Assembly: GCF_000374085.1 (NCBI RefSeq)
Contig: NZ_KB893592.1
Location: 62,001 to 126,000, forward strand
Direction: 5' to 3'
Source of the DNA: Spirosoma spitsbergense DSM 19989
Lineage (GTDB): Bacteria > Bacteroidota > Bacteroidia > Cytophagales > Spirosomataceae
DNA length: 64,000 bases
In this document: one piece after another, positions 4,541 through 10,897 of the stretch
Layout of the letters: every line of letters begins with the position of its first letter
Numbering within the stretch: position 1 is the first letter of the stretch
Translations under genes and position numbers: made by a program
Notes under the pieces: model-generated
Databases searched by the model: none
The model's input: only the letters and a program-made list of their open reading frames with translations
Told to the model about the DNA's origin: nothing

Positions 4541-5428
4541 ATGTTAAAATCAATGACCGGCTTCGGCAACGCGACCGTAGAAGCCGGTGGCCTATCGGCA
4601 ACGGCGGAAGTCAAAACACTGAATTCTAAATTCCTGGATATTTACTGCCGTATTCCCCGGCAATTTTCTGACAAGGAAATTGACTTACGGGCACTGCTTA
4701 CCCAACAACTGGAACGGGGTAAGGTCGAGTTATCGATAAACCTTGCCCGTACCAATGCCGTTCGGCCAGGGGTTATTATCAACCGACCCCTGGTGATGGC
4801 CTACGTGAGCGACCTGAAAGAAACGGCCAACACCATGCTGATGAGCATTCCGGACGGCGATGTATTCCAGATGGCCCTCCAGCAACCCAACGCCTACCTG
4901 ACCGAATCTGCCGACCCTACTGCCGATGCGTCGGAATGGGCGACGATACTGGCGGCCGTGCAGGAAGCCACCCGCCGATGCGATGCCTTTCGGAAGCAGG
5001 ATGGTGCCGTGCTGGAGAGTAAGTTTCAGGAATATATTCAGATTATTACGGACCGGCTGGCCGATATTGAAGAGCAGGATGTGAAGCGTATGCCGGCGGT
5101 GCGCACCCGGATGCGCAACTCCGTAAAAGAACTGCTGGACAGCGAAACGTTTGACCAGAATCGCTTCGAGCAGGAACTGGTTTACTACGTGGAGAAGTTC
5201 GATATTTCGGAAGAAAAAGTCCGCCTAAAAAACCATCTCAGCTACTTTCTGGAAGTACTGGCCACGGAAGAAGCCAACGGCAAAAAACTGAACTTTATCT
5301 CCCAGGAAATTGGTCGTGAAATAAATACCATCGGCTCCAAAGCCAACGACTCGACTATTCAGCGGTTTGTCGTGCAGATGAAAGACGAACTGGAGAAGAT
5401 AAAGGAACAGACAATGAACGTGATTTAA
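4541..5428 (+). CDS. yicC: YicC/YloC-family endoribonuclease
   Basis: 295 residues with the family N-terminus MLKSMTGFGNA and the C-terminal DUF1732 region rich in conserved charged residues (EELVYYVEKFDISEEKVRL-like stretch, then FISQEIGREINTIGSKAND). Known members are hexameric RNases that act on structured RNA. Length and both ends match the family; it ends in EQTMNVI. The last 189 coding bases recur 2,145 bp downstream at 7382-7570, where they form a truncated pseudogene copy. The intact gene is followed at once by a perfect palindrome. In many genomes yicC neighbours gmk; here that link is broken by the islet at 5426-7381 (inference). Confidence 0.95.
   Translation: MLKSMTGFGNATVEAGGLSATAEVKTLNSKFLDIYCRIPRQFSDKEIDLRALLTQQLERGKVELSINLARTNAVRPGVIINRPLVMAYVSDLKETANTMLMSIPDGDVFQMALQQPNAYLTESADPTADASEWATILAAVQEATRRCDAFRKQDGAVLESKFQEYIQIITDRLADIEEQDVKRMPAVRTRMRNSVKELLDSETFDQNRFEQELVYYVEKFDISEEKVRLKNHLSYFLEVLATEEANGKKLNFISQEIGREINTIGSKANDSTIQRFVVQMKDELEKIKEQTMNVI
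5237..5425 (+). repeat. Direct repeat, copy 1 (3' end of yicC)
   Basis: Matches 7382-7570 over 189 bp without gaps; by hand I count six mismatches. Five are synonymous in the yicC frame and one changes E to Q. Homology starts at CTCAGCTAC and stops exactly before the yicC stop codon. The two copies flank the three-gene islet. Confidence 0.95.
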
Positions 5429-5464
5429 ACGCTTAAACCACCCTGTTCTGGTGGTTTAAGCGTT
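5428..5464. terminator. Perfect palindrome between convergent yicC and the 93-aa gene
   Basis: A 15-bp perfect stem (AACGCTTAAACCACC and its complement) with a 7-nt loop begins on the last base of the yicC stop codon. It lacks a clear U tract on either strand, so intrinsic termination is likely but not certain. It also lies right at the edge of the repeat that bounds the islet. Confidence 0.55.
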
Positions 5465-5468
5465 CCTG

Positions 5469-5750
5469 TTAACCAAGCTTTTTTTGAATAATGGCCAAAT
5501 CCTTCGCCAGTTTCAATAATTGCTTCATTAGCTCGGCGTTGGTAACCGTATCGAAATGACTGGTAGGACCTGGTGGGGGTGGTACCGGTCCAACACCACC
5601 AGGCAGGCCACCATCGTCGAACAGGTGTTTGCCAAAATTACGAATGATCTCCACAATCAGGGCTGGATTCTCCTTCAGATTGATGACATCACCGTAACGC
5701 CTGATGATGTCGGCGACAATTTTCTCCTCCATTTGCTTCGTCTTTTCCAT
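5469..5750 (-). CDS. Small protein with two helices joined by a Gly/Pro-rich linker (PPPPGP)
   Basis: 93 residues, no family recognised. Residues 1-42 look helical and amphipathic (EEKIVADIIRRYG, NPALIVEIIRNFG), residues 45-64 are a Gly/Pro linker with a run of four prolines (GGVGPVPPPPGPTS), and residues 70-93 form another likely helix rich in K, L and A. No signal peptide or membrane segment. It starts 12 nt after the stop of the oxygenase gene and is the last gene of the islet, ending just before the palindrome shared with yicC. Because the two upstream genes encode a likely prolyl hydroxylase and a GlcNAc transferase, the Pro tract is a candidate target (inference). A GG motif (LPGG) could instead point to a processed peptide; I see no protease or transporter to support that. 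Confidence 0.7.
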   Translation of the reverse strand: MEKTKQMEEKIVADIIRRYGDVINLKENPALIVEIIRNFGKHLFDDGGLPGGVGPVPPPPGPTSHFDTVTNAELMKQLLKLAKDLAIIQKKLG

Positions 5751-5762
5751 AGCATTTTTAGT

Positions 5763-6401
5763 TTAACTCAATTGGTTCAAGATTCCTGTTCTGAATGGTT
5801 TAAGTCGTTCCCAGGTAATGAGCGTGGTTTTATGCCCGGCCAGAACGGGCATACTGGCGTGAATCATCCCGTAATTACAGTGGCCGGTAGGCAGCAAATT
5901 ATTCCAGATCAGTAACCGGCCAGCTATAGCCTGCACCCGGATGTTCTGAGCCCGAAAGTGCGTCTGTCCCCCGGCAGCAGGCGTATCCAGGTAGATCAGT
6001 ATCGTATGCTGTCGTTCACCAGCCGGGTCTTCTTCCCAATAACCGGCATCATGGTGGTAATCGAACTGACCGTTCAGATCATAATGCGTAGCCTGCCAGT
6101 ATTCAAACCGTTGCCGGGATGTGCCCAGCAGGCTTTCGAGCCGGGTTTCCAGCTCGCCCATGAAGGCCAGTAGCTCATCGCTGAACCACTCCTGAGCCGC
6201 AGTTTCGCTGGTGCGCGATGCACTGTGAAACGACTCGATCTGGTTATTTTCTACTTTTTTGATGACGGCACTACGGTGCCAGAAGGCAAATTCCAGTTCC
6301 TCCCGAACAAACGCGCACTGGGCATCGGTCAGAAAACCGTCCAGCCAGAACAGGTTTTTTTTATCTACAGTCGCTATTGGCTGCTCAGTCGATTGCTTCA
6401 T
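5763..6401 (-). CDS. 2-oxoglutarate/Fe(II) dioxygenase, prolyl-4-hydroxylase-like
   Basis: 212 residues with the P4Hc jelly-roll pattern. The iron ligands are H116 and D118 in YHHDAG and H181 in MIHASMPV; K191 in GHKTTLITW fits the 2-oxoglutarate-binding basic residue ten positions after the distal His, the spacing typical of prolyl hydroxylases. The stretch ILIYLDTPAAGGQTHF is the usual strand and GG-x-T-x-F turn of this family. No signal peptide, so a cytoplasmic enzyme acting on a protein or free amino acid is expected. Its ATG lies inside the end of the GT60 gene (17-nt overlap), implying coupled translation. The substrate cannot be read from sequence; the neighbouring Pro-rich protein is the obvious candidate. 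Confidence 0.88.
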   Translation of the reverse strand: MKQSTEQPIATVDKKNLFWLDGFLTDAQCAFVREELEFAFWHRSAVIKKVENNQIESFHSASRTSETAAQEWFSDELLAFMGELETRLESLLGTSRQRFEYWQATHYDLNGQFDYHHDAGYWEEDPAGERQHTILIYLDTPAAGGQTHFRAQNIRVQAIAGRLLIWNNLLPTGHCNYGMIHASMPVLAGHKTTLITWERLKPFRTGILNQLS

Positions 6402-7269
6402 GGCTAATCAGGGTTCGAAAAATATACGTTTCATACGCCTGACGACTGCGGACGGTACCCAGCCCATAGCGACCCGTTAGCTGACCTTCATAGAGCGAGC
6501 GGATGCGTTCAGACGATATTTTTTCCTGTTCCGTCCAGGTTGCGTGATCGGCCCAGTGTGGTGTACGGGTTCGGCGGTCGTAGGCGTGCCAGCCCACTAC
6601 CCGATGTGGATGAAACAAATCATAACCGGCCGTAAAAGCCCGCAGGCTGGTGACCACCTCATCCCCAAAAAAATAAATACCCGGATCGAATGTGATGTCG
6701 CGGTTAAACTGCCCGGCGGTAAACAAAAAATGCAGCGACACAAAGTGTGCTGGCCGGGGGCCATCGAGTTGCTTCCAGAAGGGTATTGGGTAACTGACCA
6801 ATTTCGTCAACAAGCCGTTTTCGTGATCGAGGGGATAGATCTGCATCGGTTTATGGAGCCGACCGTGCGGTTCATTGACCGGATCATAAGGGGGCAGATA
6901 ACCGCTAAGAATCGGTTTCTCAACGTGCTGTTGCCTCAACCCTTCGTACATGTCGATGAGCAGTTGATCCCAGCCCCGCACAAACCGCTGATGCGAATCG
7001 ATCAGCAATGTATACGGTTCCCCCTGCCAGCCCTGTTGCAGTAGATTTCGTGCCCAGTTGCACCCTTTACTTTCCTGATAAGGCACCTCCGTTATATCAA
7101 TAGCATACTGCGTGATCAGGCTGCGGGGTAACCACTCAGTCGGCCCGCGCTGCCAGACAATTCCAATGCGGATACGGCTGGCGTTCGTTGCCATTCTGAG
7201 CAGACTTTGCAACGTTTTGGGCAGTTCTGAATCGCGATAGGCGGGTATCTGAACGTATATCTCTGCCAT
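6385..7269 (-). CDS. GT60-type GlcNAc transferase (Skp1 Gnt1-like)
   Basis: 294 residues resembling the Glycosyltransferase (GlcNAc) family, CAZy GT60, whose known member Gnt1 adds GlcNAc to hydroxyproline on Dictyostelium Skp1. Visible hallmarks are the N-terminal IYVQIPAYRDSELPKTLQSL, the nucleotide/metal motif LLIDSHQRFVRGWD (DSH at 91-93), the acidic YFFGDEVV (202-204) and the basic HPHRVVGWHAYDRR (220-232). A GT-A fold without signal peptide or membrane anchor points to a cytoplasmic enzyme using a UDP-sugar. It is first in the islet and overlaps the oxygenase gene. Sugar donor and acceptor are inferred from family and context only. About 110 bp separate its start from the yicC remnant; I see no consensus promoter there. 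Confidence 0.85.
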   Translation of the reverse strand: MAEIYVQIPAYRDSELPKTLQSLLRMATNASRIRIGIVWQRGPTEWLPRSLITQYAIDITEVPYQESKGCNWARNLLQQGWQGEPYTLLIDSHQRFVRGWDQLLIDMYEGLRQQHVEKPILSGYLPPYDPVNEPHGRLHKPMQIYPLDHENGLLTKLVSYPIPFWKQLDGPRPAHFVSLHFLFTAGQFNRDITFDPGIYFFGDEVVTSLRAFTAGYDLFHPHRVVGWHAYDRRTRTPHWADHATWTEQEKISSERIRSLYEGQLTGRYGLGTVRSRQAYETYIFRTLISHEAID

Positions 7270-7381: not shown

Positions 7382-7618
7382 CTCAGCTACTTTTTGGAAG
7401 TACTGGCCACGCAAGAAGCCAACGGCAAAAAACTGAACTTTATCTCCCAGGAAATTGGTCGTGAAATAAATACCATCGGCTCCAAAGCCAACGACTCGAC
7501 TATTCAGCGGTTTGTCGTGCAGATGAAAGATGAACTGGAGAAGATAAAGGAACAAACGATGAATGTGATTCAGAAACGTTGTTCAGGAATGGTTGCCGCG
7601 TCGGAGATAAACAGATAA
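7382..7618 (+). pseudogene. Truncated duplicate of the yicC 3' end (direct repeat, copy 2)
   Basis: Bases 7382-7570 repeat 5237-5425 with six mismatches by hand count. The copy has no yicC upstream part, and in place of the stop codon the frame runs on for 16 unrelated codons to TAA at 7616-7618. Changes are mostly third-position, so this segment drifted under selection in a working yicC before being stranded here. It is either the displaced original end of the gene or a fragment that arrived with the islet. The region 7271-7381 before it holds nothing else I can recognise. Confidence 0.85.
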
Positions 7619-7641: not shown

Positions 7642-9135
7642 CTATAAAAAACGCTTCCGCAGCTGCCCAATCGTCTGGTTAATATCCGATGATAGACTGA
7701 ACCCGACAACAGCTCCACCGAACAGGGCCGTAATCAGGGCCGACCGACCGGCCATATCCAGCAGAACGCGGGTGGTTGTGGCAGTTGGTGCCGGGTAAGG
7801 ATATTGTACAGAAATCCACCACACGCCTGCGCCCAGTAACACAACCAGTCCATTTCGCCAGGTGAACGGCTGCATGTTGAACGCAAACCCGACGAACAGC
7901 GTCCGGGCCAGATTGTACAGGAACGTAGCCAGTGCCGCCCCAATAGCCGCCCCATTGATACCAAATCGGGGAATCAGGTATAGGTTAACTGCAATAGTGA
8001 TAAAAATCAGCACAACAAAAAACAGCGAGTCGTAGGTGTAAAAGCGCGACGTGTTTAGGATGATGCCATTCACGCCCGTGGCCATGTCGATGAGTTTGCC
8101 AAGACCCAGCCACAAGATGACGTAGTACCCCGCTTCGTAGCTTGGCGGCAGAAACCGGAACACATTGGGCAGGTTGGCGGCCACCCCAACAAATACCAGA
8201 CACCCCGCAATGAGTTGATTCAGGCAGCTTTTCCGATAGATACTGGCGATATTCTCCAGGTCGTTCGTTTTCCAAGACTCCGCAATCAACGCCCCCGACA
8301 CCTTGTAGAGAGCCGTGGCGGGTACGGCAATAACGGCGGCAAAGTAGGAAGCCGTGCCGTATACACCCGTATCGCCCAGGCCCTGTTTGCTGTTAATCAT
8401 CACCTTATCAATCGTCAGAATAATTTGCGACGATAGGGCCGTGGTGAGGGTCAAGGCTGCGTAGCGCGTCAGGTTTCGGCGCAATTCGGGGTCGAGGTTA
8501 AGGAAACGCCGATGAAGAAACAACGCTTTATCACGAACAACGCTGACCACCATCAGCATCGTTTGCAGAAAGAAAGCCAGTAGCCACAGGCCCAGAAACT
8601 GCGGGAACGTAACCCATCCCAGCCAGTAAATCACCCCCGCCAGTAAAATCAGCAGCCGCTGCACAAACTGCTGCAGCACCGTGCCCGTAACGGGGTTGTA
8701 TAACAGCCGGGAGTAGTTGTCGAAAACGGCAAAGTAAACGGTGAACAGCGTTAGCGGAATGAGCAGGTAATAGTAGTCGGTAAACAACGCCGACTCACCT
8801 CCGCTGCTCGCAATAAACCAGGGTCGGGCCAGCCACAGCCCCAGCACACACAGGCCAAAACCAACAAGTGTTGTCAGACTTGTTAGGAACAGATAGCCGT
8901 TATGTTGCCGGTCGGGGTTGCGGAAATACGGAAAATACCGCCCTCCCGCGCCGTTGGTACCCAGGTTGGCAAATTGGGCCAGCACCTGCGCCAGAGAAAT
9001 CAGCAGCGTCAATAACCCGACCTGCGCCTTGCTGAACAGATTCGGAAAGAAAAGTCCCTGCGTTAAAAAGCCCACCGCCACCCCCGCGTAGGTGTACACC
9101 GAACTCTGAATCGTCTGCCGTTTTATGATACCCAT
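7642..9135 (-). CDS. Polysaccharide/lipid-linked oligosaccharide flippase (MOP superfamily)
   Basis: About 497 residues with 12-14 hydrophobic segments in the pattern of polysaccharide biosynthesis (Wzx/RfbX-like) flippases. I start it at the ATG at 9135 (MGIIKRQTIQSSVYTYAGV), the usual N-terminus of this family; an upstream start at 9192 would translate a repeat-rich hairpin into an unlikely SFAHSFIRSFS stretch. It follows the pseudaminate synthase gene, so it may export a surface glycan or glycoconjugate carrying that acid (inference). Its tail faces the yicC remnant. Confidence 0.85.
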   Translation of the reverse strand: MGIIKRQTIQSSVYTYAGVAVGFLTQGLFFPNLFSKAQVGLLTLLISLAQVLAQFANLGTNGAGGRYFPYFRNPDRQHNGYLFLTSLTTLVGFGLCVLGLWLARPWFIASSGGESALFTDYYYLLIPLTLFTVYFAVFDNYSRLLYNPVTGTVLQQFVQRLLILLAGVIYWLGWVTFPQFLGLWLLAFFLQTMLMVVSVVRDKALFLHRRFLNLDPELRRNLTRYAALTLTTALSSQIILTIDKVMINSKQGLGDTGVYGTASYFAAVIAVPATALYKVSGALIAESWKTNDLENIASIYRKSCLNQLIAGCLVFVGVAANLPNVFRFLPPSYEAGYYVILWLGLGKLIDMATGVNGIILNTSRFYTYDSLFFVVLIFITIAVNLYLIPRFGINGAAIGAALATFLYNLARTLFVGFAFNMQPFTWRNGLVVLLGAGVWWISVQYPYPAPTATTTRVLLDMAGRSALITALFGGAVVGFSLSSDINQTIGQLRKRFL

Positions 9136-9147
9136 TCTTGAGAATGA

Positions 9148-9238
9148 GCGAATGAATGAATGAGCGAATGAGTGAATAGCTGGCGCGAGCACTTTGTTTA
9201 CGCCAGCTATTCACTCATTCACTCATTCATTCATTCGC
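9148..9238. repeat. Long hairpin of GAATGAGT-type repeats between pseI and the flippase gene
   Basis: Arms 9148-9185 and 9201-9238 are 38 bp, complementary with one mismatch, around a 15-nt loop. The arms consist of GAATGAATGAGTGAA units followed by TAGCTGGCG. The pseI stop codon (9227-9229) is built from the right arm, so the element has altered or supplied the gene's end. Related short repeats occur at 49626-49710 and inside the coding start of the gene at 14860. Confidence 0.9.
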
Positions 9239-10294
9239 AATTAGGTTCCAGTCCAGTGCCGTGCCTGCTTCGATGTTCTGCGTGGCGGCTTTGCCGATGA
9301 TGCCGTCGTAGTAGCGGGTGTGCAGACCGTTCGCCGGGCGAATACTGCGCACAGTGTCGGGCGTGAAGCGTTCACCCGCCTGCATGGCGCGCACGACGTA
9401 CAGCGACCGTTTGAATTGCAGACTTTTCGCTTCTTTCGGGGTGAGAGTATAACTAATCTGCCCCATTGCCAACTGCGCCCGTTCGGTTTCAACGACGAGG
9501 TTTTTAAGTTCGTCGGGTTCCAGCGAGAAGGCAGAATCGACCCCTCCATCGGCCCGGCGCAGTGTAACGTGTTTCTCCAGCACTACGGCTCCCAACGCCA
9601 CCGCTGCCACGGCCGCCCCGATGCCCATGGTATGGTCAGAAAGGCCAACGGGTACATCGAAGAGTTGCCGCATATGCGGAATGGTGAGCAGGTTAGTCGT
9701 TTCGGGCGTGGCCGGGTAAGTGCTCGTGCATTTGAGCAAAATGAGGTCTTTACACCCATTGGCCCTGAGAACCTTTACCGACTCCTCTAGGTCAGCCACG
9801 GAGGCTACACCCGTACTCATAATGACCGGCTTACCAGTTTGGGCTACTTTTTTGAGCAGGATATGGTCTGTATTTTCAAACGAAGCAATTTTATAAAGGG
9901 GCACATCCAGCGATTCCAGAAAGTCGACCGCCGTGGTGTCGAACGGCGAACTGAAAGCGATCATACCCCGCTTTTTGGCGTGGTCGAAAATAGGTTTGTG
10001 CCACTCCCAGGGTGTGTACGCTTCGGCGTAGAGTTTATACAGGTTCTTATCGGCCCAGAGCGATTTGGCATCCCGAATGTAAAACTCTTCCGAAGCTCCG
10101 TTGAATGTAATCGTATCGGGTGTGTACGTCTGAAGTTTAAGGGCATGGGCACCGGCATCCGCTACGGCATCCACTATTTCCAAAGCCCGGTCGAGCGACT
10201 GGTTATGATTCCCCGACATTTCGGCGATAACAAACGGGCGATGGACTGGACTTATGGTAAACTGGGCAACCTGAATCGGCTGGATACTACTCAT
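9227..10294 (-). CDS. pseI: Pseudaminic acid synthase (NeuB family)
   Basis: 355 residues. The NeuB TIM barrel occupies about 1-280 (FVIAEMSGNHNQSLDRALEI, AGAHALKLQTYTPDTIT, HVTLRRADGGVDSAFSLEP) and a C-terminal SAF/antifreeze-like domain follows (residues 290-355, RSLYVVRAMQAGERFTPDTV). The SGNHNQ start and LKLQTYTPDTIT favour PseI over sialic acid synthase NeuB. PseI condenses 2,4-diacetamido-2,4,6-trideoxy-L-altrose with phosphoenolpyruvate to make pseudaminic acid, a cell-surface nine-carbon sugar. Its ATG overlaps the acetyltransferase stop by 4 nt. The other pathway genes (pseB, pseC, pseG, pseF) are not in this window. Confidence 0.9.
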   Translation of the reverse strand: MSSIQPIQVAQFTISPVHRPFVIAEMSGNHNQSLDRALEIVDAVADAGAHALKLQTYTPDTITFNGASEEFYIRDAKSLWADKNLYKLYAEAYTPWEWHKPIFDHAKKRGMIAFSSPFDTTAVDFLESLDVPLYKIASFENTDHILLKKVAQTGKPVIMSTGVASVADLEESVKVLRANGCKDLILLKCTSTYPATPETTNLLTIPHMRQLFDVPVGLSDHTMGIGAAVAAVALGAVVLEKHVTLRRADGGVDSAFSLEPDELKNLVVETERAQLAMGQISYTLTPKEAKSLQFKRSLYVVRAMQAGERFTPDTVRSIRPANGLHTRYYDGIIGKAATQNIEAGTALDWNLIANE

Positions 10295-10773
10295 TGACTG
10301 TTGATGTAAAGCAAACTTGGCGTATCAAATTTACCGCTTTCGCCCGACAGTACGAAACCTGCCCGCTCGAAGGCCCGCATCGACGCCCGGTTATTGGCCT
10401 TAATGTAGGCATGAATCGTAACCATACCCCACTGCTCCCGACATGCGGCACACCCCTGCTGAATTAGCTGAGTGGCCATTCCCTTGCCACGCTGACTGGC
10501 ATCGACCGAGATACCGATAATGATTTCGTCGGGCATATCGGCTACGGGTGCTCGCTCGAATCGGACCTGCCCCACCGCCTGCTCCATCTCGTCGAAAAAG
10601 ACAAGCAACAGCGCATTGGCATCGGTCAGTTTGCGCGTAAACCAGGCCGTGTGCGTTTCCAGTGAGATAGGGTTTGAATTGAACGATTGCCGCCGGGTAT
10701 CGGGATCATTGGCCCAGTCGAAATAAAGCTGGGCATCGATTATCTGGGCTGTTCGGTAGACTAACTGAGCCAT
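10291..10773 (-). CDS. GNAT N-acetyltransferase, probably PseH-like
   Basis: I use the ATG at 10773 (MAQLVYRTAQIIDAQLYFDW), giving 160 residues; the frame extends upstream to 10872, but that part runs into a terminator and lacks similarity to the family. The acetyl-CoA motif A is QRGKGMATQLIQQG, and motif B includes ANNRASMRAFERAGF. Overlap of 4 nt with pseI argues that it makes the N-acetylated precursor in pseudaminate synthesis (PseH acetylates the 4-amino group). A general GNAT role is the alternative. Confidence 0.8.
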   Translation of the reverse strand: MAQLVYRTAQIIDAQLYFDWANDPDTRRQSFNSNPISLETHTAWFTRKLTDANALLLVFFDEMEQAVGQVRFERAPVADMPDEIIIGISVDASQRGKGMATQLIQQGCAACREQWGMVTIHAYIKANNRASMRAFERAGFVLSGESGKFDTPSLLYINSQ

Positions 10774-10857
10774 TTGACGTGTCGACTTATAGGGTTGGTG
10801 AAACAGTAGCAGGTGTCTATACAGTCCAGTCTCTTTCTGCAATAATCGGTAAAAACA

Positions 10858-10897
10858 AACGTCCGGTTTCAACCTATATAGGTTAAAACCGGACGTT
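10858..10897 (-). terminator. Hairpin terminator after the sugar dehydrogenase gene
   Basis: Arms AACGTCCGGTTT and AAACCGGACGTT enclose a self-complementary AACCTATATAGGTT core. Read on the minus strand it is followed by TTTGTTTTTA, a good U tract, 20 nt past the stop at 10917. It separates that gene from the pseudaminate operon. Confidence 0.85.

Follow-up and report, generated by a model that had tools for sequence, protein, structure and literature searches.

What is a GT60-type glycosyltransferase doing beside a prolyl-4-hydroxylase (P4H)-like oxygenase in a bacterium, and what is the small protein encoded with them for? The window analyzed here, 64,000 nucleotides of the 7.5 Mb genome of Spirosoma spitsbergense DSM 19989 (contig NZ_KB893592.1, positions 62,001 to 126,000), carries on its minus strand, from position 7269 down to 5469, a GT60 gene, a gene for a 2-oxoglutarate (2OG)-dependent oxygenase, and a gene for a 93-aa protein, arranged head to tail (Table 1). 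In Dictyostelium, the P4H PhyA hydroxylates a proline of Skp1, and the GT60 enzyme Gnt1 then adds N-acetylglucosamine (GlcNAc). A first-pass annotation of the window had read its three consecutive genes as a bacterial counterpart of this pathway, a hydroxyproline-glycosylation unit with a small protein of its own. The open reading frames (ORFs) are as it described them: those of the GT60 and the oxygenase overlap by 17 nt, and a gap of 12 nt separates those of the oxygenase and the small protein. We find that these genes form a real, rare, and conserved cassette, which is apparently mobile. The reading we favor, tentatively and with the odds still somewhat against it, is that the oxygenase and the GT60 modify a loop of the small protein in sequence, as PhyA and Gnt1 do with Skp1.

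The three genes, their order, and the 17-nt overlap are repeated in a second genome of the genus (G114, locus L020) and in a Spirosoma metagenome-assembled genome (MAG; L021). The proteins of these two cassettes are 77 and 81% (GT60), 71 and 73% (oxygenase), and 78 and 71% (small protein) identical to those of the window. Across the cassette genes, the proportion of synonymous differences (pS) was 0.58–0.78, which is near saturation, and that of nonsynonymous differences (pN) was 0.12–0.19; dN/dS was 0.05–0.18 in the seven of nine comparisons with a finite dS, figures that are rough because synonymous sites are near saturation. Such low pN at near-saturated pS suggests that all three genes are constrained. 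Taken with the order and overlap kept in two other genomes, this constraint argues that the cassette is more than chance.

Few genomes carry it. The small-protein profile matched 3 of 36 genomes in the genus and, at E 0.01, 5 of 390 in the order sample, of which we accepted G000, G114, and G460. The weak matches, G200 (E 0.0019) and G049 (E 0.0055), were treated as chance, and the part of the G200 neighborhood inspected by eye shows no oxygenase. The same profile matched 1 of 196 genomes in the family of G460 and 1 of 395 in the phylum sample, the latter being the window's own genome, which was also the only one of 296 phylum genomes matched by the oxygenase profile at E 1e-10. PF11397, the Pfam family of the GT60, matched 5 of 200 genomes in the family sample and 11 of 395 in the phylum sample, all of the latter except the window's genome being weak partial matches (best E 6.5e-5). 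These genus, family, order, and phylum samples overlap. Coverage extended over the Bacteroidota samples, plasmids, and phages, together with a scan of genome contigs for exact matches to short peptides, sensitive to close relatives only; among the matches listed for named genome contigs, the one relative was the Spirosoma MAG. Searches of viral contigs with the small protein and the oxygenase returned no relative. Wherever a genus genome has the small gene, the order GT60-oxygenase-small is kept (3/3), and in all four genomes with the pair the small gene lies directly downstream of the oxygenase gene.

The fourth of these genomes, G460, belongs to another family of the same order. Its oxygenase is 45% identical to that of the window, and its small protein, encoded 30 nt downstream, 36%. 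PF11397 had no match in the whole G460 genome, which is rated 100% complete. That the two occur here without a GT60 indicates that the core pair consists of oxygenase and small protein, a conclusion drawn from one genome, and that the Pro/Thr loop of the small protein accompanies the GT60; the pair would have come first and the GT60 later. The G460 pair lies near conjugative-transposon genes (TraM PF12508, DUF4138, and RadC). Downstream of it, L045:3326-6436 encodes a protein of 1,036 aa that combines an amine-oxidase domain with Rieske and ferritin-like domains, the last weakly VioB-like.

By profile and motif, the glycosyltransferase falls in family GT60, as first annotated. It matched PF11397 with E 8e-60 (203.6 bits vs. 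a curated cut-off of 21) and the glycosyltransferase family PHROG 24687 with E 7.4e-71. Its DxH motif is D91-S92-H93, with a later histidine at H228, and the motif is the same in the three cassette GT60s and in at least 90% of 97 other GT60s. Excerpts of PMC7185993 describe DxH instead of DxD as typical of GT27 and GT60, and GT60 as restricted to prokaryotes and protists. At 294 aa, the cassette enzyme lacks the C-terminal part of long GT60s (about 400–540 aa). Its structure model is of moderate quality (pLDDT 64.6). Foldseek matched the model to GT-A enzymes, including TarP and ppGalNAc-T2, at E 2.7e-7 and weaker, with TM-scores of 0.4–0.55 and a root mean square deviation of about 10–14 Å, high because the model is only moderate. 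The model thus points to a GT-A fold, and family membership predicts alpha-GlcNAc transfer to a polypeptide. A sequence search at E 1 found no solved relative.

The oxygenase matched PF13640 (E 3.4e-9), and the residues singled out at first pass, H116, D118, H181, and K191, proved invariant in all four oxygenases. They fall on the HxD, H, and K of solved P4Hs, the best match being 2jig (E 2.9e-16), where we take these to be the iron and 2OG residues; 5hv0 and 7zsc are among the other solved P4Hs in the profile match. The alignment predicts an HxD...H iron site with a lysine for 2-oxoglutarate and an enzyme of P4H type, for which proline would be the probable target. The AlphaFold model (pLDDT 36) was unusable, and the class assignment rests on the sequence profile match to solved P4Hs. 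Distant relatives, 22–31% identical, occur on 13 to 15 plasmids and in 8 phage records; for the six plasmid relatives inspected, the annotation shows neither a GT60 nor a named partner. PADLOC matched the oxygenase to its generic 2OG model only, and on that ground a defense-system reading of the cassette was rejected.

The 93-aa protein reached no family cut-off in Pfam, had no NCBIfam match, and had none in PHROGs or PADLOC at E 0.01. It is laid out as two amphipathic N-terminal segments, a Gly/Pro loop, and an amphipathic C-terminal segment, its helices being inferred from hydrophobic moments. It had been described as a small Pro-rich protein. The small third gene does recur in three genomes; the Pro-rich look comes mostly from a PPPP run (residues 57–60, four extra residues) private to the window, the other two cassette proteins having GGVGPVGPTS only. 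At the overall identities given above, GGVGPV and GPTSH are invariant in the three GT60-bearing genomes, and P55, P62, T63, and S64, which are kept in these three small proteins, are missing in G460. The G460 protein keeps the N-terminal RYG..I.L...PALI.EI.R, the GGVG, and the C-terminal TN.E.MK. Across the four genomes the flanking segments are better kept than the loop, and P29 is invariant.

Several other matches of the small proteins were treated as chance: Zw10_N for that of L020 (E 0.00023, 22.1 bits, below the cut-off of 26.3), purD for that of L021 (E 0.0037, far below cut-off), phrog_3609 (function unknown) for that of G460 (E 0.0036), a Streptomyces plasmid match (E 3) inside an unrelated 200-aa protein, and a Nostoc match (E 0.8). 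L020:887-1213 matched the small-protein profile at E 0.0054. A collagen reading of the loop was rejected, as its three or four Gly-X-Y triplets (counted by eye) are too few for a triple helix.

No export signal is obvious in any of the three proteins. None has a hydrophobic stretch (maximum 19-residue hydropathy 0.71), in agreement with the earlier statement that they lack signal peptides, and judged by this hydropathy alone they are apparently cytoplasmic.

On the reading we favor, the cassette would be a small, horizontally moving, cytoplasmic protein-modification unit. The oxygenase would be a prolyl-4-hydroxylase-type enzyme with the small protein as its dedicated partner, and the GT60, added to this core pair, would transfer GlcNAc to the small-protein loop (GGVGPV...GPTS), most likely onto a proline hydroxylated by the oxygenase, in the manner of PhyA and then Gnt1 on Skp1. 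As the hydroxylation step depends on O2 and 2-oxoglutarate, presence of the sugar could signal O2 or carbon status, displayed on a small helix-loop-helix protein that probably binds another protein. P4H and GT60 are co-encoded with the small protein in three genomes. That the cassette amounts to a self-contained bacterial O2-dependent hydroxyproline-GlcNAc switch, its GT60 having moved from threonine to hydroxyproline as acceptor after joining a mobile pair, and so an independent counterpart of PhyA/Gnt1 with its own substrate, strikes us as possible and somewhat unlikely.

A number of findings weigh against sequential modification of the loop. The G460 loop has neither proline nor GPTS, and the sole proline of that protein is the P29 equivalent; the oxygenase is nevertheless kept. 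As candidate acceptors, P55 and P62 are thus absent from G460, and P29 is the only proline shared by all four small proteins. The first-pass proposal survives as a gene unit conserved in three genomes, and its hydroxyproline linkage is weakened by the G460 loop. Nor is the small protein tied to the GT60: it goes with the oxygenase, and G460 has both without a GT60. The pair itself is known from four genomes, three of them in one genus.

The surroundings of other GT60 genes count against it as well. GT60s are common in phages: a viral scan gave at least 600 stretches, at least 583 of them with GT60 relatives, of which the best 80 (L049–L128) were analyzed. The subfamily oxygenase profile matched none of these 80 loci, and a profile of ten diverse oxygenases matched one (L079), four genes from the GT60 and unconfirmed by Pfam. 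A second candidate, L062, picked by motif, was dropped as well, neither of the two having a 2OG family in Pfam. Within two genes of the GT60 in 60 dereplicated phage loci lay 226 ORFs, 131 of them of 140–420 aa, of which 128 were scanned and three run off the contig. No 2OG family was among the 25 most frequent of the 52 Pfam families near phage GT60s (the other 27 possibly having one member each); other glycosyltransferases and methyltransferases were frequent. What did recur was a Pro-Thr repeat ORF, defined by a 30-residue window with at least 6 Pro, at least 6 Thr, and at least 18 Pro+Thr, a threshold set after the first table. Such an ORF directly precedes the GT60 in 19 of the 60 loci, against a mean of 6.6 and a maximum of 17 in 20,000 draws of random ORFs from the same loci. 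It is present anywhere in the stretch in 37 of 60, and the preceding gene is not of this type in 41. Before dereplication it stood at -1 in 26 of 79 loci and at +1 in 1 of 79. Among 12 further GT60 loci (L017–L019, L036–L044), at a looser threshold of Pro+Thr at least 17/30, four have a Pro-Thr protein, directly before the GT60 in L017, L018, and L040 and as the third gene after it in L037, and the oxygenase profile matched none of the 12. The first-pass expectation that GT60 and P4H genes would be neighbors elsewhere therefore holds inside the genus (three genomes) and fails outside it, at the phage loci and the 12 further loci. The lack of a nearby oxygenase, together with the Pro-Thr neighbors, makes threonine the likelier acceptor of the GT60 family, and the pattern fits a family of polypeptide transferases often acting on threonine; mucin-like glycosylation of phage proteins by GT60s is possible.

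We noted some features of these loci in passing. In the window's own family, L017:9407-11194 and L018:7884-9916 hold a short, divergent GT60 directly next to a protein of PTPTPS repeats whose N-terminus contains RR. On plasmids of Burkholderia, Paraburkholderia, and Cupriavidus (L038, L039, and L041), the GT60 of L038 and L039 neighbors type VI secretion genes and a gene annotated as fimbrial, and L041, which has no annotation, resembles them by its ORFs. The Azospirillum GT60 (L037) has phage-tail sheath genes in its vicinity, as well as a PTPTPT protein. Three phage contigs (L116, L118, and L128) have two tandem GT60 genes with a 4-nt overlap.

The main rival builds on these surroundings. 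It supposes two independent marks, the GT60 placing GlcNAc on Thr or Ser of GPTS and the oxygenase hydroxylating a residue common to the four small proteins (e.g. P29) or a non-proline residue, and we consider it rather unlikely. The Pro-Thr repeat proteins before the GT60 in 19 of 60 phage loci and in 4 of the 12 further loci are what it predicts, GPTS is present with the GT60 and absent without it, P29 is invariant, and an excerpt of PMC9472816 reports that TcOGNT1 makes GlcNAc-alpha-Thr. However, none of the cassette loci (window, L020, L021) has a Pro-Thr repeat protein, and two independent marks leave unexplained both the coupling of GT60 and oxygenase and the sequence divergence of the cassette GT60s. 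In the tree these three group together as a single clade (100/100) whose branch is long (2.52), and they depart at 21 positions conserved in at least 90% of the 97 other GT60s. At 19 of the 21 all three differ, and at 16 they share one residue. Q89, two residues before the DxH motif and invariant in the 97 others, is L in the trio, and E203, likewise invariant, is D. The comparison set comprises 83 phage sequences and 14 from named records or family genomes; being mostly phage, picked by similarity, and not dereplicated, it lessens what this divergence can say for a Skp1-like pathway. Divergence at conserved positions and the missing C-terminal part make a changed acceptor plausible where the oxygenase is coupled. 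Excerpts of PMC6939170 place the eukaryotic Skp1 hydroxyproline-GlcNAc transferase in GT60 and state that in protists Gnt1 activity depends on PhyA, and one of PMC8724618 that neighboring Skp1-pathway enzymes are often fused there. With the divergence of the trio, this dependence and these fusions let the Skp1-like reading survive.

It is also conceivable, and in our view quite unlikely, that the small protein serves the oxygenase as adaptor or regulator and that the target of both enzymes is some other protein of the cell, much as EF-Tu is the target of a bacterial PHD-like enzyme; an excerpt of PMC7864055 describes the Pseudomonas putida prolyl hydroxylase that modifies EF-Tu. The small protein accompanies the oxygenase even without the GT60, and its flanks are better kept than its loop, both of which would suit an adaptor. 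An adaptor does not account for a loop whose GGVGPV and GPTSH are invariant in the three GT60-bearing genomes and changed where the GT60 is missing. A ribosomally synthesized and post-translationally modified peptide (RiPP), with the N-terminal segments as leader and the Gly/Pro region as a core tailored by the enzymes, is highly unlikely: a small protein with a conserved N-terminal segment does adjoin two modifying enzymes, but conservation extends to the C-terminal segment, which would not be expected of a core peptide, neither the conserved unit genes nor the small protein matched an exporter or leader family, and an M43-type peptidase gene (named by eye from sequence) stands beside the cassette in G114 only of the three. 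Least probable of all, the genes could be chance neighbors sharing an insertion hot spot with no joint function, as the joining of the GT60 in one genus only and the position in a variable gap beyond yicC might suggest, but overlap and order are kept despite 71–81% protein identity and near-saturated synonymous sites.

The cassette is a new arrangement of known families. With the Skp1 pathway of Dictyostelium and Toxoplasma (PhyA, Gnt1) it shares two enzyme superfamilies, an apparently cytoplasmic location, and a possible O2 dependence; unlike that pathway, it has no further sugar transferases, and its candidate substrate has no Pfam family and no known link to Skp1. To our knowledge, hydroxyproline-linked cytoplasmic GlcNAc is known only from protists. 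The oxygenase is of the same 2OG/Fe(II) P4H type as bacterial prolyl hydroxylases (Pseudomonas PPHD on EF-Tu, the P4Hs of PDB 5hv0 and 3itq), and we know of none of these coupled to a GT60 or to such a small protein. Like Trypanosoma cruzi TcOGNT1 and the Dictyostelium Golgi pp-alphaGlcNAcT, which are GT60s making GlcNAc-Thr, the cassette GT60 has a DxH motif; those enzymes, according to excerpts of PMC9472816 and PMC8724618, act on Thr of secreted mucin-type proteins, whereas in the cassette the GT60 is coupled to an oxygenase, and neither a Thr repeat nor an export signal is apparent. Phage GT60s of PHROG 24687 are sequence relatives, with 37–42% identity over the best segment, that differ in length (about 400–540 aa), in their frequent Pro-Thr neighbors, and in having no oxygenase found nearby.

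In the open-access literature, which makes for weak evidence, we found no paper on a prolyl hydroxylase with a GT60 in bacteria or on GT60 in bacteriophage, and nothing on hydroxyproline/glycosyltransferase RiPPs in Bacteroidota or on threonine-rich phage glycosylation. Judged by title, the one open-access paper matching PF11397 deals with the genome of a brown alga, and none of those on Skp1, prolyl hydroxylase domain enzymes (PHDs), mucins, or bacterial PHD/EF-Tu concerns a bacterial GT60, and the excerpts of PMC3769586, PMC11570480, and PMC3515798 mention no bacterial relatives. If the Skp1-like reading is true, the cassette is a minimal two-enzyme system with its own 93-aa candidate substrate, in which one could ask by what means a GT60 recognizes hydroxyproline in place of threonine, and whether two such enzymes can serve bacteria as an O2 reporter. 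GT60s beside Pro-Thr repeat proteins in phages and bacteria suggest, in turn, a prokaryotic mucin-like protein glycosylation, on which the open-access literature gave no paper.

The cassette's position speaks to how it may have arrived. We detected yicC in 34 of 36 genus genomes and compared 30 yicC loci; in 21 of the 30, Mpg is no more than 1.5 kb from yicC, and three (G000, G891, and G114) have cassette genes there. In L021 the cassette stands between Mpg and yicC, and in L020 it does so together with an exported-looking peptidase gene adjoining yicC, a placement that marks the cassette as inserted between Mpg and yicC. The window's cassette has yicC on one side and a flippase gene on the other, and between it and the flippase gene the 3' end of yicC occurs a second time; the two 189-nt copies are identical at 183 positions, and the second has lost the stop codon, with none at the yicC position. 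In G140, the closest genus member by yicC (97% protein identity), yicC is followed directly by the same flippase (96%), and the genome has a single yicC, no GT60, no small protein, and no second yicC 3' copy. Most simply, the window's lineage would have gained the cassette through a recombination event that duplicated the end of yicC; its loss in G140 is a possible alternative. Each of the two copies agrees with G140 at 172 of 189 positions, and this equal match means that they do not name the cassette donor. The hairpin between the small gene and the convergent yicC is likely a two-way terminator for both.

Table 1. Features of the cassette and its insertion site in the window
Feature	Position	Strand	Basis
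GT60-type glycosyltransferase, 294 aa, first cassette gene	6385-7269	-	PF11397, PHROG 24687, GT-A model, alignment
Prolyl-4-hydroxylase-like Fe(II)/2OG oxygenase, 212 aa	5763-6401	-	PF13640, profile match to solved P4Hs
Small protein, 93 aa, proposed substrate	5469-5750	-	ORF, alignments, hydrophobic moments
Small-protein loop, residues 46-65 (DGGLPGGVGPVPPPPGPTSH)	5556-5615	-	Alignments; candidate sites P55, P62, T63, S64
Perfect 15-bp hairpin (5428-5442/5450-5464) separating small gene from convergent yicC	5428-5464	.	Read from sequence
yicC, flanking gene at insertion point, outside the system	4541-5428	+	PF03755/PF08340, genus synteny
yicC 3' end, first copy of 189-nt direct repeat flanking cassette	5237-5425	+	Sequence repeat
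Second copy of yicC 3' end, between GT60 and flippase	7382-7570	+	Sequence repeat; marks inserted segment

Beyond the second yicC copy, positions 7642-10872 hold genes for the flippase, a NeuB-type synthase, and a GNAT acetyltransferase in a row, presumably part of a nonulosonic (pseudaminic/legionaminic) acid pathway. A functional link of the cassette to the flippase/NeuB genes was rejected, since G140 has the flippase adjoining yicC without the cassette. A 38-nt inverted repeat (97%) of GAATGA-like units, at 9148-9238, spans the start of the flippase gene.

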